Shown: positions 1,832 to 35,177 of the stretch, piece by piece
Numbering within the stretch: the stretch's first letter is position 1
Layout of the letters: the number at the start of each line of letters is the position of its first letter
DNA from: Pseudomonas paraeruginosa PA7
GTDB taxonomy: Bacteria; Pseudomonadota; Gammaproteobacteria; Pseudomonadales; Pseudomonadaceae
Length of the DNA stretch: 64,000 nt
Assembly: GCF_000017205.1 (NCBI RefSeq)
Contig: NC_009656.1
Location: 2,422,001-2,486,000 of the forward strand
Direction of reading: 5' to 3'
Made by a program: the position numbers and the translations under genes
The notes under the pieces: model-generated
The model's input: only the letters and a program-made list of their open reading frames with translations
Databases searched by the model: none
Told to the model about the DNA's origin: nothing

Positions 1832-2596
1832 TCACTCCAGATCGAGGGCGATATCCCCCGGCTTCTTGATGACGCGGTAGGTGTTCAGTTCGCGGGATTC
1901 CTCGTTCTCCTGCTCGAGCACGATGACGCCCTGGTCCAGCAGCTGGAGGACGACGCGCTCGGCTTCCTCGGTGGTGAGAGCGAAGCGCGATTGCAGCCAG
2001 GCCGCGTCGAACACGTCCTTCTTGGTGGCGACGCCGATGGCGATCTCGCCCAGGGTGTGGCCGGCGAAGCGCTCGACGGTGAGTTGCGGCAGCTCTTGGA
2101 ACTCGGCATCGACGACGTCGCTGTCGTCTGCTGGTTGCATACCGCCCCAGGCGCCGAGGTCTTCCATGTCATGGTCGCCGCCGTTCAGGTCCAGGGGCGT
2201 CTGGTCCGGGTCGGGCTTGACCTGGTCCATGCCCTCGGTGAACTCGTTGGCGCCACCGATGATGAGCAGGCAATCCTTGTTCACCGCGAACAGCAGGTCC
2301 TCCTTGTGAGGGCTGCTCGGATTCACCACGAATACGGCCTTCATCTTGTCCTTCGCGGTCATCGACTCCAGCTTGCCGTAGACCGTGTCGCGGTCGCCGC
2401 CGGCAATGGTGTGGACCGCGATGGTGGCGGCATTCCGTACCTGGCGTTCCAGGCGGTCGATAATGTCCTGCTGCTTGGCCTCGGGAAGCTTCTGCCAGCA
2501 GTCCGGCATGATCCGGATTTCCTGGATCAGACCCTGCAGCAAGCTTTTGCCGAGGGTGTCGGCGGTCATGTTCATGAAGTGCGAGTTGTTGCTCAT
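1832..2596 (-). CDS. Phage protein with FtsK-gamma-like C-terminus
   Basis: 254 aa, separated from the Rad50-like gene by 3 bases. I do not recognise the N-terminal 170 residues; the middle is acidic (DPDQ, GGDHDMED). The C-terminal 75 residues, including the stretch DAAWLQSRFALTTEEAERVV, resemble the winged-helix (gamma) domain of FtsK in spacing and in the LLDQGVIV strand. DNA binding is therefore plausible. The recombination operon context suggests an accessory recombination role, but the function is unknown. Confidence 0.65.
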   Translation of the reverse strand: MSNNSHFMNMTADTLGKSLLQGLIQEIRIMPDCWQKLPEAKQQDIIDRLERQVRNAATIAVHTIAGGDRDTVYGKLESMTAKDKMKAVFVVNPSSPHKEDLLFAVNKDCLLIIGGANEFTEGMDQVKPDPDQTPLDLNGGDHDMEDLGAWGGMQPADDSDVVDAEFQELPQLTVERFAGHTLGEIAIGVATKKDVFDAAWLQSRFALTTEEAERVVLQLLDQGVIVLEQENEESRELNTYRVIKKPGDIALDLE

Positions 2597-2607
2597 CGGG
2601 AAGGGTC

Positions 2608-2808
2608 CTATTCGTTGGCAATCCGCTCCAACTGCTCGAGTTGGGCGTCGCTGAGGTAGGTGTGGGCGCCGTAGCGCTGGAAGTTGCTGCGGAGGTCGGC
2701 CAGGAACTGCTCGTCCCAGTCCGTAGCGGCGTTGAGCTCAGCCGCGCCGAGTAGCGCGGCGAACTCCCCGACCTGGCCGTACCGCTCAAGGACAGTGAGG
2801 CTGGGCAT
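2608..2808 (-). CDS. Small hypothetical phage protein
   Basis: 66 aa, between RecT and the FtsK-gamma-like gene, with 6- and 11-base gaps. It is rich in Leu, Glu and Ala, with no recognisable motif. Tight spacing and codon use like its neighbours support a real gene. Function not known. Confidence 0.55.
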   Translation of the reverse strand: MPSLTVLERYGQVGEFAALLGAAELNAATDWDEQFLADLRSNFQRYGAHTYLSDAQLEQLERIANE

Positions 2809-2814
2809 GGCCGG

Positions 2815-3609
2815 TTACTCGAGATTGAGCTCGTCGGTGCCGGTGTCGCTGGTGTCCGGCTGCTGGCCCGGGGCGGGTTCGGTGATTTCGCCCGTCTCGG
2901 TGTTCACTCCGTCCGGCGGGGTTTCTTCGGCTGCTGCGGGGCTGCTTTTCGTGCCTGGCGACAGGTCTCGCAGGTCGTTCACGTTTACAGCAAAGCTGCC
3001 ACCGGTATCCTGCTGCGCGTCGTAGACGTCGCCTACCTCGTCGGCCGTTTGCAGGCCCATGGAGAGTTCCGGAGCAAAGGCCCGCGTCCACCAGGAGCCG
3101 GCGCGATACATCAGCATTTGCTGAGGCATCGTCTTCCATTTGCTGCCGTTCTTGCCGTACCAGCCCTCGGCCTTGGCGATCGCGATGGTGATATCGGCGC
3201 CGACCAGCTTCTCGTTGGTTGCGCGCTCGACCGCCCAGGCTCGGCAACCCCAGGTGTCGGTACCTTGCTCACCGAAGAACTCGAAGCGCAGCGCCGAGAA
3301 ACGGCCACTGGTGTTGACGGTGGCGATCAGGAACTGGCTGGACCAAGTCGGTCGGCCGTGGACGATCACCAGGTTCTGCATCACCTGGAGCGGGTCGGCA
3401 CCAATGCGCTGCGCCATGTTCAAGGCGATCACGCAGTTGGACAAGTTACCCTGGTATTCCTTGGGCACCAGCGTCGAGCTGGCGAGCAACTTGGCGCAGC
3501 GCTGGGCCAGTTCGAAGCCTTCGAGGTTGGTCATGCTGACCGCGAAGTTCTGCCGCGGCTTGGCAACTGCCGAGGTTTGCAGCTCGGACAATGAAGTGGT
3601 GTTGGTCAT
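2815..3609 (-). CDS. recT: RecT-family single-strand annealing protein
   Basis: 264 aa from the ATG at 3609, which overlaps the HNH stop by ATGA. The core region (residues about 40-200) matches the RecT/Bet annealase family, with the signature segments NMAQRIGADPLQVMQNLVIV, GRPTWSSQFLIA and MLMYRAGSWW. These proteins anneal complementary strands exposed by a partner 5'-3' exonuclease; the likely partner is the exonuclease at 4106-4909. The C-terminal 60 residues are Pro-, Glu- and Thr-rich and probably disordered. The long frame that continues upstream of 3609 belongs to a shadow of the HNH gene. Confidence 0.9.
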   Translation of the reverse strand: MTNTTSLSELQTSAVAKPRQNFAVSMTNLEGFELAQRCAKLLASSTLVPKEYQGNLSNCVIALNMAQRIGADPLQVMQNLVIVHGRPTWSSQFLIATVNTSGRFSALRFEFFGEQGTDTWGCRAWAVERATNEKLVGADITIAIAKAEGWYGKNGSKWKTMPQQMLMYRAGSWWTRAFAPELSMGLQTADEVGDVYDAQQDTGGSFAVNVNDLRDLSPGTKSSPAAAEETPPDGVNTETGEITEPAPGQQPDTSDTGTDELNLE

Positions 3610-4105: not shown

Positions 4106-4909
4106 TCACTCGTGATATGGACACGATCCCCAACGGGGACAGTACTTCGGGCTGCAAAGTGGGCTTTGCGGGTTCGGGGGGAAGAGGCCGGAGCGGAACA
4201 TGTCCGCCGCGTAATCGATCAGGCCGCGGTGCGACTCGCTGCCAGCCATCATCTGGCGCGCGCCGACGATCTCGCCGACGGCCGCCTCGGGCTTGCCCTT
4301 GGTCTTCAAGCCGATGATCTCGGCCGGCGCGGTGATCGCATCGCCGGTGGTGTGCTCGTAGAGCAGTTCGTAGGTGCCGATCTGGGCCTTGTGTCCCTTG
4401 GTCTTGGCCACGCCCTGGCTCACCGCGGCGCCGCCAGTCTTCACGTCTGCGATGCCGACGCCGTGGCTATCGCGCTTGATGCGGGCGCGGTCGAGCTGGC
4501 CGGTCAGACGCACGATGATCCCGCCACCGCAGTCGATCTCCATCGGCTTGGTCGTCAACTCGACGGCGACGAAGTCGTAGCGCGGGCTGATGTCGTTGCA
4601 GTACTTCGTGTGCAGCGTCAGTCCGGTGGACTCGGCTTCGCGCGGGCTGATGTCGGAGCCGCGCCAGTCGACCTCGAACTCCGGCTGCTGCAGCGTGTGC
4701 ACCAGCAGTTCCGAGGCGTCGTAGGCGCTGATCGGCTCGCCGTTCACCCGTGCCGCGTCGAATGCTGCGGTGCTTGCGTGGATCGCGGTACCGAGCAGCG
4801 CCCGGGGGGATGAAGGGCTGCGCATCTTCAGGATGTGTACGCCTTCCCAGCGGAACGCGCAGTCGAACAGCGCGCCCCAGGATGAGGCGCGCACGGTGAT
4901 GGTTTGCAT
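4106..4909 (-). CDS. PD-(D/E)XK exonuclease with Cys cluster
   Basis: 267 aa. It has the RecB/Cas4-like order of nuclease motifs: a conserved GTAIHASTAAFD helix near residue 42, the LTGQLDRA strand with its Asp, then ADVKTGG (the D-x-K active-site strand) near residue 155. It ends in CSPKYCPRWGSC, which with C18 (FDCAFRW) could bind an iron-sulphur cluster as in Cas4 and AddB. It probably resects DNA ends for RecT. It opens the recombination block; the 45-aa membrane peptide gene ends 7 bases upstream. Confidence 0.8.
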   Translation of the reverse strand: MQTITVRASSWGALFDCAFRWEGVHILKMRSPSSPRALLGTAIHASTAAFDAARVNGEPISAYDASELLVHTLQQPEFEVDWRGSDISPREAESTGLTLHTKYCNDISPRYDFVAVELTTKPMEIDCGGGIIVRLTGQLDRARIKRDSHGVGIADVKTGGAAVSQGVAKTKGHKAQIGTYELLYEHTTGDAITAPAEIIGLKTKGKPEAAVGEIVGARQMMAGSESHRGLIDYAADMFRSGLFPPNPQSPLCSPKYCPRWGSCPYHE

Positions 4910-4916
4910 GGTTGGC

Positions 4917-5054
4917 TCACTTCCCGGCGATGGGTGCCGTGGCGGGTTGTTCGGCGGTGATCAGGCCGCCCCAGGCAGGGGCGAAGATGAGCAGGATGTA
5001 GAAGGCGGTCATGGCCAGTGCGCCGAGGAGGGTGGCTTTACGCTTGGCATTCAT
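4917..5054 (-). CDS. Small membrane protein, 45 aa
   Basis: 45 aa. A basic start (MNAKRK) is followed by one hydrophobic helix (LLGALAMTAFYILLIFAPAW) and a short polar tail. The ATG overlaps the stop of the zinc-finger gene (ATGA at 5051-5054), indicating translational coupling. A positive N-terminus followed by a helix predicts an inner-membrane single-span protein. Function unknown; small inner-membrane proteins of the early left operon in other lambdoid phages can affect host or superinfection functions. Confidence 0.6.
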   Translation of the reverse strand: MNAKRKATLLGALAMTAFYILLIFAPAWGGLITAEQPATAPIAGK

Positions 5055-5374
5055 GGCGCATGCCTCCCGGCCCCATTGCACTTCCAGCAGGAGGAGTAGG
5101 CAGAATGGTGCGGGCCGTGCGATACGGTGTTACCGGTGCCTTGACATACCCGGCAAACAACCTTTTCCCGCTCCTTCTCAAGTTTCTTGCGAAGCGAGTC
5201 GGCTTCGCGTGACCCCGGATCCTCCGGGGAATAGAAGGCTTGTCCAATGTTCTCTGCGAACAAGACAACGTCCCTGGCAATCGCCTTGATCTGTTCGCTG
5301 GTGGCCACCACGCCATGCTCTTCCAGCGACTCCCCAAGCCCTTCGGCGAAGTAGTCTTCCCGTGAGTAGCTCAT
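5051..5374 (-). CDS. DnaJ-type cysteine-repeat protein
   Basis: 107 aa from the ATG at 5374, which overlaps the upstream stop by ATGA. A helical N-terminus is followed by CRVCQGTG and, 16 residues later, CWKCNGAG. This is the CxxCxGxG pattern of the DnaJ zinc-binding domain, here with just two repeats, enough for one zinc. It may be a zinc-stabilised phage adaptor; no J domain is present. Function unknown. Confidence 0.65.
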   Translation of the reverse strand: MSYSREDYFAEGLGESLEEHGVVATSEQIKAIARDVVLFAENIGQAFYSPEDPGSREADSLRKKLEKEREKVVCRVCQGTGNTVSHGPHHSAYSSCWKCNGAGRHAP

Positions 5375-5550
5375 CGCCGCACCTCCAGGCACTTCCGGCC
5401 GCGCTTGATGGTCAGCGCCATGCGATGCGGCAGGTTCACCACCAGGGTCTCGCGCGGCAGGCCGAGCACAGCGGCGATATCGGCGCCGGCCGGCATCACC
5501 AGGTCGTCGAGCTGGTCGTCGATGATCGAGCGAACGGGGCGGGTGGTCAT
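5371..5550 (-). CDS. Small hypothetical protein, 59 aa
   Basis: 59 aa from MTTRPVRS at 5550; overlaps its upstream and downstream neighbours by 4 bases each. The sequence VNLPHRMALTIKRGRKCLEV is strand-rich and basic. The overlapping arrangement supports translation. Function not recognised. Confidence 0.55.
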   Translation of the reverse strand: MTTRPVRSIIDDQLDDLVMPAGADIAAVLGLPRETLVVNLPHRMALTIKRGRKCLEVRR

Positions 5551-5768
5551 AGGTCGATGCTCCTCAGTTCCTGCTGTCTCGCATCCGCTGCGGCGTCGAG
5601 CCGGCGGCGCATGTCGTCGTATTGCCGAGTGCCGATGGCGTCGAGGGTGTAGGCCATCTCGATCTGGCCGCGCCATACCAACTGGTCGTGGCGCGGGATC
5701 ACCGACCGACGCATTGCGACGATCGCTTCCTCGATCACGCCCTCGGCGCGCTCATTCGCCCAGGCCAT
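5547..5768 (-). CDS. Small helical hypothetical protein
   Basis: 73 aa from MAWANERAEG at 5768 (an alternative start is at 5774). Entirely helical, with charged repeats, and ending in RRRLDAAADARQQELRSIDL. It overlaps the upstream ORF stop by 17 bases and the downstream start by ATGA. No known family recognised. Confidence 0.55.
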   Translation of the reverse strand: MAWANERAEGVIEEAIVAMRRSVIPRHDQLVWRGQIEMAYTLDAIGTRQYDDMRRRLDAAADARQQELRSIDL

Positions 5769-5904
5769 CGTCATCCTCCTGCTCTTCGTCCTCGGACTCT
5801 GGATCTGGTTCCGGCTGGTCCCAGAGCGGGTCGACGGCACGGTCGTAAGCGAGTTGCGCGTTGCTGAAGGCCGCGCGGTTGCGGCGCTCGCGGTATGTCC
5901 ACAT
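5752..5904 (-). CDS. Small acidic protein, 50 aa
   Basis: 50 aa, starting at 5904 (MWTYRERRNR) behind a GGAG about 9 bases upstream, and overlapping the next gene by 17 bases. Basic N-terminal third, very acidic end (PESEDEEQEDDD). It appears to be the promoter-proximal gene of the operon running from 5904 to 83. Function unknown. Confidence 0.5.
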   Translation of the reverse strand: MWTYRERRNRAAFSNAQLAYDRAVDPLWDQPEPDPESEDEEQEDDDGLGE

Positions 5905-6005
5905 CGGGATGCTCTCCGTGGTTCACCTGCATTCGGCTGAATGCTCACGCCGCCGGGCTTGCCCGATGGGGAAGGCGGGGAGCGTTCATGCGAATGCGGG
6001 CGGTG

Positions 6006-6029
6006 AAAAAAGCCCGGCCGGAGCCGGGC
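6006..6029 (-). terminator. Strong minus-strand terminator of structured RNA
   Basis: Seven-base-pair stem GCCCGGC/GCCGGGC with a 4-base loop (6012-6029), followed on the minus strand by six U (6006-6011). It is a textbook Rho-independent terminator, lying directly downstream of the structured element at 6055-6178 and over 350 bases past the CsrA-like stop. Confidence 0.8.
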
Positions 6030-6054
6030 GAAGAGGGGGAACGCTGCTTGCACA

Positions 6055-6178
6055 GCGGGGAGTGATCGGCGCGAGGGCGTCCCCTCTGGCTCCGTCCGCG
6101 CCACCAGCCGGCGGCGTTGCTCGTTGGCTCGCCTGCTTACGAGGCAGGTGCCTGACTCGGCTGCCGATCACTCTCCGC
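6055..6178 (-). ncRNA. Candidate structured phage RNA
   Basis: Two 16-base arms (6055-6070 and 6163-6178) pair completely except for one position: a wobble on the plus strand, a mismatch on the minus strand. They enclose about 92 bases that fold further: a 5-bp stem with a 7-base loop (6132-6148), and a GGCGCG/CGCGCC stem (6068-6073 with 6097-6102) closing a GAGGG/CCCTC hairpin (6073-6086). The GGCGCG stem shares three bases with the long stem, so these two are partly alternative. No gene covers 5905-6398. The terminator at 6006-6029 points to minus-strand transcription. Several GGA triplets are present, the core CsrA-binding motif. Strand, ends and function are inferred. Confidence 0.5.
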
Positions 6179-6199
6179 TACGCCCTGGCTCCGCCAGGA

Positions 6200-6224
6200 A
6201 AGAGAAGGGCGCCGCCAAGCGCCC
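6200..6224 (-). terminator. Possible terminator after the CsrA-like gene
   Basis: Hairpin with arms GGGCGC/GCGCCC and a 6-base loop (6207-6224), followed on the minus strand by TTCTCTTT. It could end the CsrA-like transcript before the structured RNA. The interrupted U tract makes it weaker than the one at 6006. Confidence 0.45.
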
Positions 6225-6398
6225 TGTCTCCACTTACATGCACCGCCTTATGTGAAAGCGGTTGGGTACAGGCTCGACCGCATGTTGGCGATCTGCCGTT
6301 GGGGCTGGGCTACATGTCGAGGACCTCCGTTGTGCGCGCCGTTGGACCGGCGGGCGCTCGCCGTGGCGCATCGGCCGGCAATGGGCCAGGCGCCGAAG

Positions 6399-6770
6399 TC
6401 AGGAGATCGCGGTGCAGGCTCGCAACGCCACCGGCGCCGACTGGCCTTCGATCCAGATAACCGCCGCTCCGCCAAGCGATACGCTGGCCCGGCCGACGGT
6501 GCGGGTGCGCTGCGGGTCTGCCCCTCGGTACGGGCGGTACTCGATCAGGGCTGGCGCTGGGTGCTCTCGGTTCCAGGCCTCGACCAGCTCCGCCGGTGGC
6601 ACCGGACGGACGTTGCCGATCTGCTGGTAGATCTCGGAGCGGTGAATGGCGACGTCGTCCGGGGCGGTGATGCCGAGGCGCACCTGGTCGCCCTGGCTGC
6701 CGAGGACCGTCACGGTGATGTCGTCGCCAATGTGCAGGGTTTCGCCGACTCGGCGAGTGAGGATCAGCAT
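6399..6770 (-). CDS. CsrA-domain protein with C-terminal extension
   Basis: 123 aa. Residues 1-50 ([20 protein letters not shown], then [12 protein letters not shown]) are a full CsrA/RsmA domain; CsrA dimers bind GGA motifs in mRNA leaders and control translation. Normal CsrA ends near residue 60, but here about 70 residues follow, containing [23 protein letters not shown] and AAVIWIEG. The same block makes up the small protein encoded just upstream at 6805-7017. A good GGAGG lies 5 bases before the ATG. The protein probably modulates host or phage translation; what the extension does is unknown. Confidence 0.8.
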
Positions 6771-6804
6771 GTGTGCCTCCGTTCAGGATGCTGTGCGCGC
6801 GGGC

Positions 6805-7017
6805 TCAAGCCGGCTCGCAGTGGGAAAGGGCAACGCAACCGGACACGCCGGCGAGCCAGACGACAGCAGTGTGTCCGCCGAGCACCTGGGCTTCGGTTGT
6901 CGTCCGGGTGCGCTTCGGCGCCGCGCCGCGATGGAATCGGTAGTCGACCTCGGTGCCGACGGGGTATGCGGAATTCCAGGCAGCAACCGTCGCCGCCGGG
7001 TTGGCGTTCTTCTTCAT
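6805..7017 (-). CDS. Stand-alone paralogue of CsrA-fusion tail
   Basis: 70 aa. The sequence aligns with the C-terminal extension of the neighbouring CsrA-like protein: VAAWNSAYPVGTEVDYRFHR against [20 protein letters not shown], then RGAAPKRTRTTTEA against [14 protein letters not shown], then AVVWLAG against AVIWIEG. It lies 34 bases upstream in the same direction, so the two are probably co-transcribed. The fold is predicted to be small and strand-rich. It diverges from the IS-split gene across 76 bases. Function unknown. Confidence 0.65.
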   Translation of the reverse strand: MKKNANPAATVAAWNSAYPVGTEVDYRFHRGAAPKRTRTTTEAQVLGGHTAVVWLAGVSGCVALSHCEPA

Positions 7018-7245
7018 GGCAATGGATCTCCTATGGCCTATTGCCGCACTCCACTGATAGATTCGGAAGAGTCCTGGGAATGGAGGCCTATCTATGGATG
7101 AAAAGAATCTGGAAGTGCTTCGCCGACTAAAGGAGGCGATGGAGCGAGAGAAGCCTGTAGAGCAGCCCAAGAAACCGCATTGTAGTGGTCTACTGACCCC
7201 GGACACCGATTTAGGCGAGAATCCTCGCCGTGAGAGAGGTGTCTG

Positions 7246-8408
<1,163 letters not shown>

Positions 8409-35104: not shown

Positions 35105-35177
35105 AATGAAGAAGCCCCAGGTGCTGCAACACCCAGGGCTTCGGGGAAACGTCGAAATCTACGAGGAAAACAACGTC

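Follow-up and report, generated by a model that had tools for sequence, protein, structure and literature searches.

A paired clamp with exchangeable inserts at an early locus of temperate Pseudomonas phages, possibly a carrier of RNA decoys

The window, that is, the whole stretch of 64,000 nucleotides of Pseudomonas paraeruginosa PA7 that was analysed, contains a noncoding element in which two pairing arms (the clamp) enclose an interior (the payload) that differs from phage to phage. Conservation of the clamp, independence of the payload and exchange between near-identical flanks are well supported by sequence comparison. The element is best read as a minus-strand noncoding RNA from a temperate Pseudomonas phage, part of its early leftward (P_L-like) operon, and the clamp would hold exchangeable decoys mimicking host RNA. 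We put this reading forward tentatively, at somewhat below an even chance. The features of the element are given in table 1.

Table 1. Features of the clamped element and its upstream neighbour (positions in the window)
Feature	Position	Strand	Basis or remark
Clamp 3' arm GCCGATCACTCCCCGCT	6054..6070	-	Arm-pair search; pair counts over 59 arm pairs
Clamp 5' arm AGCGGAGAGTGATCGGC	6163..6179	-	Arm-pair search; pair counts over 59 arm pairs
Payload, class T0, 92 nt between the arms	6071..6162	-	Other payloads in phages with near-identical flanks
Payload hairpin GGC-A-CCUGC-CUCGUAA-GCAGG-CGA-GCC, anticodon-arm-like (5 bp, 7-nt loop)	6126..6152	-	Alignment columns 30-56
Payload hairpin 2	6100..6115	-	Alignment columns 67-82
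Payload hairpin 3, GAGGG-GACG-CCCUC	6073..6086	-	Alignment pair 101-106
Chassis hairpin CCTGG-CGGAG-CCAGG, immediately 5' of clamp	6184..6198	-	Loop variable among relatives
Additional 5' hairpin, terminator-like pattern	6207..6224	-	Terminator scan
Hairpin GCTGTGCAAGCAGC	6043..6056	-	Located by stem search, noticed by eye; would compete with the clamp's outer pairs
Intrinsic terminator	6006..6029	-	Terminator scan; hairpin 6029-6012 + T6
CsrA-domain gene ('bci'/carbon storage regulator of related phages)	6399..6770	-	E 1.1e-24; upstream neighbour

The original prediction had claimed pairing arms with a terminator behind them on the minus strand and no coding sequence, and both claims held. 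The closing stem is 17 nt long, with 16 of 17 positions paired (94% complementary) and 92 nt between the arms; its sole mismatch is an A opposite a C. It was the only stem with at least 16/17 Watson-Crick pairs and 60-300 nt spacing on the minus strand of the window, and equally good stems numbered one in the second of ten shuffled windows and none in the other nine. The terminator lies about 25 nt past the closing stem on the minus strand; it is one of four terminator-like sites in a 2.4-kb scan, where 1.1 were expected, and is retained in the P. aeruginosa-phage relatives read, with or without payload. No sigma-70-like promoter was found within 4900-7300. The majority of the matching phage records (10 of 12) have no annotated feature here, while two (phi297 and vB_PaeS-D14P) have a hypothetical ORF annotated under the element, and interior lengths vary without frame retention. 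Between the terminator and the next gene there is a second inverted repeat (5926-5946/5980-6000, minus strand, 21 nt, 81%); by eye, relatives have the same outer CATTCG/CGAATG pairs and a different inner helix, and this repeat may be a second exchangeable structured element.

The terminator, the direction of the operon and the mostly sense orientation of tRNA arms point to the minus strand. Folding was better than in 200 shuffles on both strands (z -3.2 on the minus strand, -3.85 on the plus strand), thus energy cannot pick the strand. The G-U versus A-C statistics do not settle it either, with 49 G-U-variable pairs on either reading. The Watson-Crick search of clamps gave 21 G-U versus 44 A-C cells, leaning to the opposite strand (17 arm pairs carry A-C at the one recurrent A-C position); the G-U-favouring search gave 49 versus 14; and double changes within payload classes were equally many on the other strand (22 vs 21).

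Considering relatives, scans of viral contigs gave 95 stretches for the 3' arm of P. aeruginosa type plus its flank, and at least 120 for the P. syringae-type arm. We found that loci retrieved by the 3' arm alone had the partner 5' arm in 177 of 177 cases among the matches listed (111/111 and 66/66), while permuted arms on the same loci found a partner in 6 (3 and 3); this test covered newly found loci with at least 200 nt upstream and left out 9 shorter sites. In 59 distinct arm pairs, 94.5% of the cells were paired, against 23-47% in slid registers, and double changes occurred in 7 of 19 clamp pairs (4.6 in shuffles, as high in 4 of 500) and in 48 cells (10.9 in shuffles), counts that are biased toward pairing because the search pattern set the 3' arm and at least 13/15 pairs were demanded. 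At pair 9-34 of this alignment, A stands opposite C in 30 of the 59 rows; the recurrent A-C position is found in both phage lineages, is polymorphic inside payload classes, and may be a deliberate mismatch.

The fairer tests of the clamp are the arm-only partner search and the sites found by an upstream motif alone. An independent search with this conserved motif, blind to arms and payload, gave at least 158 distinct sites, not counting 11 with less than 330 nt of sequence, which the stem test left out. A stem of at least 16 pairs was present at 135 of 158 sites among the matches listed, and in 1 of 140 control stretches. Since 76 of the 158 lie in loci that had been fetched otherwise (61 by arm), the fair set is the 82 motif-only sites, and 64 of these had such a stem among the matches listed, the inner sequence being the usual one in 24 and another in 40; the remaining 18 had 9-15 pairs. 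The other inner helices comprised 25 distinct 9-mers, about five of them near the usual one, and outer CATCGG-type pairs were present in 130 of the 135 stems (both among the matches listed). Because the inner 9-mers vary beneath mostly constant outer pairs, the clamp (a closing helix some 15-25 bp long) keeps its pairing despite changes of its inner sequence and cargo. That inner helices take about 20 other sequences and yet stay paired is unlike a fixed recombination site, and it weighs against an element acting as DNA only, in which inverted repeats promote the exchange of short inserts and the RNA has no function. The arms are indeed inverted repeats, exchange does occur between conserved arms, and the strand statistics are undecided, but almost all recognisable tRNA arms point the same way and the T0 payload covaries internally; we regard a mere DNA cassette as very improbable.

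This covariation emerged when seven cores of P. aeruginosa type were aligned with seven of P. syringae type, the core being 76-77% identical (blastn) in the P. syringae phages Cruim01 and Medea1. Double-sided changes were found in 6 of 37 predicted pairs, 3 of the 6 inside the payload, all as a contrast between two clades only. In the anticodon-arm-like hairpin the last pair of the inner stem covaries (C-G/A-U), and in payload hairpin 3 a G-C becomes U-A in the P. syringae phages. The covariation that the original prediction had proposed to look for in homologues was thus seen, with compensatory changes in the closing stem and in three interior pairs across two phage lineages. Class T0 itself occurs in both clamp lineages.

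The distribution was examined in genomes as well. Within Pseudomonadaceae, 24 of 398 genomes matched the P. syringae-type arm pattern at no more than 1 mismatch, 22 matched the reversed control pattern, and the partner arm confirmed 23 of the 24. Among 194 genomes of the order outside the family none had the exact P. syringae-type arm, a pattern that does not fit the window's P. aeruginosa-type arm, and plasmids gave no match to the window element or to one other payload. Tandem clamped RNAs, two or three per intergenic region, were observed in L431 (Aurca01, about 2540-3120) and in L309, and one of them carries, by eye, the clamp GCAGATG/CATCTGC. In P. aeruginosa phage CF63a (L015 1966-2445) there are two small ORFs at the payload position, with flank remnants and no clamp.

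The payloads change as wholes. Phages such as phi297, AUS531phi, D14H and YMC P52 keep the flanks and closing stem but have another interior. Sixteen pairs of payload classes had both flanks at least 90% identical across at least 300 nt among the matches listed; T0 is a member of four (with T1, T4, T20 and T25), and the pair T1/T21 differs by an internal deletion. Among the matches listed, 52 classes were counted in the first set and 73-77, depending on the clustering rule, in the union, where lengths were 14-183 nt with a median of 88; the union uses two trimming schemes and therefore counts some payloads twice among its 275 sequences. Of 308 frames, 181 were kept as sense-oriented, 11 unclear ones were dropped, and flank rules removed 116 that were taken to be palindromic stems read in reverse. 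T30 (the reverse of T31) and T43 (two tandem clamps) were dropped before most later tests, leaving 50 classes, and two-strand clustering of the classes revealed no further orientation error. About ten classes have a 5' hairpin GCGC-AGGCUGAU-GCGC around a variable centre and mostly add a 3' hairpin GCCGG-AGAUCAGCA-CCGGC. Payloads folded no more stably than DNA in their vicinity (mean z -0.31 for 50 payloads, -0.38 for 94 nearby stretches).

A base-pairing sRNA that regulates host messages, with payloads varying along with hosts and targets, would suit the terminator at the 3' end, and comparable prophage sRNAs have been reported, such as svsR (PMC12803456). The exchange of whole payloads rather than seed regions argues against it, and we consider this reading improbable.

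The gene neighbourhood bears on the remaining explanations. The gene order of the window matches that of phi297, in which cI, csrA, the element and recombination genes follow in succession. phi297, Medea1 and PseuP_224 have a cI repressor gene upstream of the element and on its strand, and Cruim01 has one for a C2-type repressor, whereas in MD8 and phiAH14a the element adjoins different genes. Downstream of the window element are small ORFs, a PD-(D/E)XK nuclease (E 1.5e-17) and another gene, which has a weak RecT match below the cut-off. Upstream of csrA we noted an IS3-type insertion with two ORFs (7246-8408, plus strand, named from sequence by eye), which may interrupt the early operon in the PA7 lysogen. 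Elsewhere in the window, at 35107-35176 (minus strand), there is an Rfam match to sar RNA, the P22 antisense RNA, above the gathering score (46.6 bits).

The early-operon location, together with the terminator behind the element in P. aeruginosa phages and the hairpins at both clamp ends that, judged by eye, could compete with it, is what a cis-acting leader would have. The clamp would then switch the operon at the RNA level, by attenuation, regulated processing or antitermination like that of HK022 put, with the payload as mere filler. Payloads are nevertheless kept within classes, with compensatory changes in T0. Moreover, Cruim01 and Medea1 have no terminator-like site near the clamp, L333 has only one, about 350 nt further, and the four phages in which the element is absent at this position (LKA5, PP9W, E220 and JBD90) still have the terminator. 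A leader of this kind is therefore quite unlikely.

The same four phages bear CsrA, and their lack of the RNA concerns another claim. The original prediction had taken the GGA triplets and the CsrA-domain gene next door as signs of a CsrA decoy resembling RsmY/RsmZ. The gene adjoins the element and GGA occurs in the loop of one chassis hairpin of the window. However, this loop is not conserved among relatives, and the six GGA triplets in the 235 nt of the window RNA include one ANGGA only, which is absent from 12 of 17 variants (including all P. syringae-type ones) and present in 5. Over 52 class representatives, GGA was at chance (127 seen, 128 expected) and ANGGA below it (20 vs 30 expected). 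Element and annotated CsrA also occur apart in the other direction: Cruim01 and Medea1 carry the RNA in stretches of 10 and 6 kb with no CsrA gene, as judged by annotation. RsmY/RsmZ-type sponges are likewise terminator-ended small RNAs in Pseudomonas, but the criterion for a Csr/Rsm sponge is multiple ANGGA motifs in hairpin loops (PMC7366521), and the window RNA has no such conserved loops. A CsrA/RsmA decoy is hence scarcely credible, and the CsrA-domain gene is a neighbour of the RNA rather than a demonstrated partner. This gene (bci) has been studied in AUS531phi (PMC7546807), whose payload is of the T1 type.

Skipping-rope RNA is phage-borne and has a long closing stem with a large loop, features that the element shares and for which the original prediction had named it. 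Its model, RF02924 (80 positions), was not among the Rfam hits to E 10 in 5500-7100, and it had no match genome-wide, in a search whose controls also stayed silent. Thus the reading as a structured, terminator-ended phage RNA with a covarying stem stood, while the two specific families proposed for it fell away. With Rfam 15, neither the window element nor the clamps in 18 loci matched any family at gathering level, and relaxed thresholds gave nothing convincing in twelve loci (two among the 18); the best relaxed hit of the window, which overlay the terminator end, was SorX, with 20 bits against a cut-off of 46.6. RT-15 RNA (RF03018, 177.9 bits) was observed on the same contig as a clamp (L276 6488-6679, plus strand).

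P4 CI and P1/P7 C4 are short, stem-closed phage RNAs that lie near the repressor, are processed by RNase P, and represent one RNA type each with an antisense target. The element resembles them in being short, stem-closed, phage-borne and close to the repressor, and its hypervariability and a tRNA-like shape suited to RNase P processing would fit an immunity or exclusion RNA of this type. The processed payload would then base-pair with leader targets, either in its own phage or in a competing one, and differences among payloads would set the immunity groups. Here, by contrast, about 75 payload classes share one clamp, and the C4 model had no gathering-level match in the window or the 18 loci. 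Complementarity of payloads to their own locus did not exceed that to other loci (42 classes, up to 14 kb, mean z -0.36), a test in which pairings of about 10 nt are undetectable. We regard an immunity RNA as unlikely.

Likeness to tRNA was found in a minority of the payloads, about 7 of about 75 classes. The tRNA profile matched eight distinct classes to E 1, 7 of 8 in sense. In T18 and T20, stems carry T-loops identical to those of the host; shuffles averaged 0.01 class with such loops, and none of 300 reached the observed count. L528 has a nearly complete tRNA shape within another payload (E 2e-5). By eye, phiAH14a and L478 (tRNA profile E 0.009) show both a D-arm and a T-arm, the clamp taking the place of the acceptor stem. 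The loop CUCGUAA of the window payload is one base from that of host tRNA-Thr(CGU), and the P. syringae-phage variant of T0 has a weak tRNA profile match in the D-to-anticodon part (E 0.28). None of the 50 classes, T0 included, has an exact host anticodon loop, and an 18-letter anticodon-loop pattern matched 92 bacterial-genome stretches, none with the T0 core or the clamp 3' arm. The window RNA is not a recognised tRNA (ARAGORN found 0 genes in the window, and RF00005 was absent among hits to E 10), nor did ARAGORN call any payload a tRNA in eight loci, L434 and L433 included. An ARAGORN tRNA-Met(CAT) gene lies about 400 nt downstream of the clamp in L008 (Medea1, 3531-3608, plus strand). Overall, alignment scores showed payloads unlike host tRNA, rRNA, RNase P, SRP, tmRNA and 6S RNA, the mean best score being 23.2 in sense and 22.0 in antisense against 23.4 for the coding control, and they gave no support to a by-eye impression that T12 is a piece of 23S rRNA.

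GOLLD and ROOL RNAs contain tRNA, an association that the element shares. They are likewise structured phage RNAs with variable regions (PMC12286853), but they are much larger, and the element had no Rfam match. For CRISPR-repeat mimicry, three repeats, which we take to be from P. aeruginosa, scored no better than shuffled repeats, and this candidate was rejected. Racr RNA anti-CRISPRs are small phage RNAs that imitate host RNA to occupy host proteins (PMC10651486), a manner of action that the payloads may share; Racrs are single CRISPR repeats, and the abstract of that report mentions no clamp. Among the matches listed in the open-access literature, no title or beginning of an abstract describes such an element, subscription papers and preprint servers being largely outside this coverage.

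Based on the early position, the exchangeable cargo and the mimicry in some classes, exchangeable decoys fit best. The RNA would be transcribed early. Its clamp comprises the 5' hairpin, the closing helix and the 3' hairpin, with the terminator added in P. aeruginosa phages, and stays constant around a small payload that passes among phages as a cassette. The double-stranded clamp may be trimmed by RNase III and/or, for tRNA-like payloads, by RNase P, and would protect the payload. We suppose that the payload then acts in trans as a decoy or inhibitor imitating host RNA, through tRNA parts in some classes and perhaps an anticodon arm in T0, and ties up an RNA-binding enzyme of the host, most probably a nuclease or toxin used in defence. 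The many alternatives at one position would then reflect an arms race.

Swapped cassettes at early phage loci are a hallmark of anti-host functions, and the known ones are mostly proteins. To our knowledge, no RNA family has a fixed clamp carrying dozens of different swappable inserts, and we therefore rate the architecture as new in kind; the claim of function is separate and unproven. It is conceivable, though we are doubtful, that the element is a platform dedicated to RNA, with a double-stranded clamp fixed at an early locus and swapped mimics that each disarm a different RNA-dependent defence of the host, for example tRNA-cleaving nucleases. In that case the catalogue of payloads would already list anti-defence RNAs. 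Should the payloads be inhibitors, a direct screen of the catalogue against defence systems would be possible, and the clamp would offer a natural scaffold with which to deliver stable RNAs in Pseudomonas.
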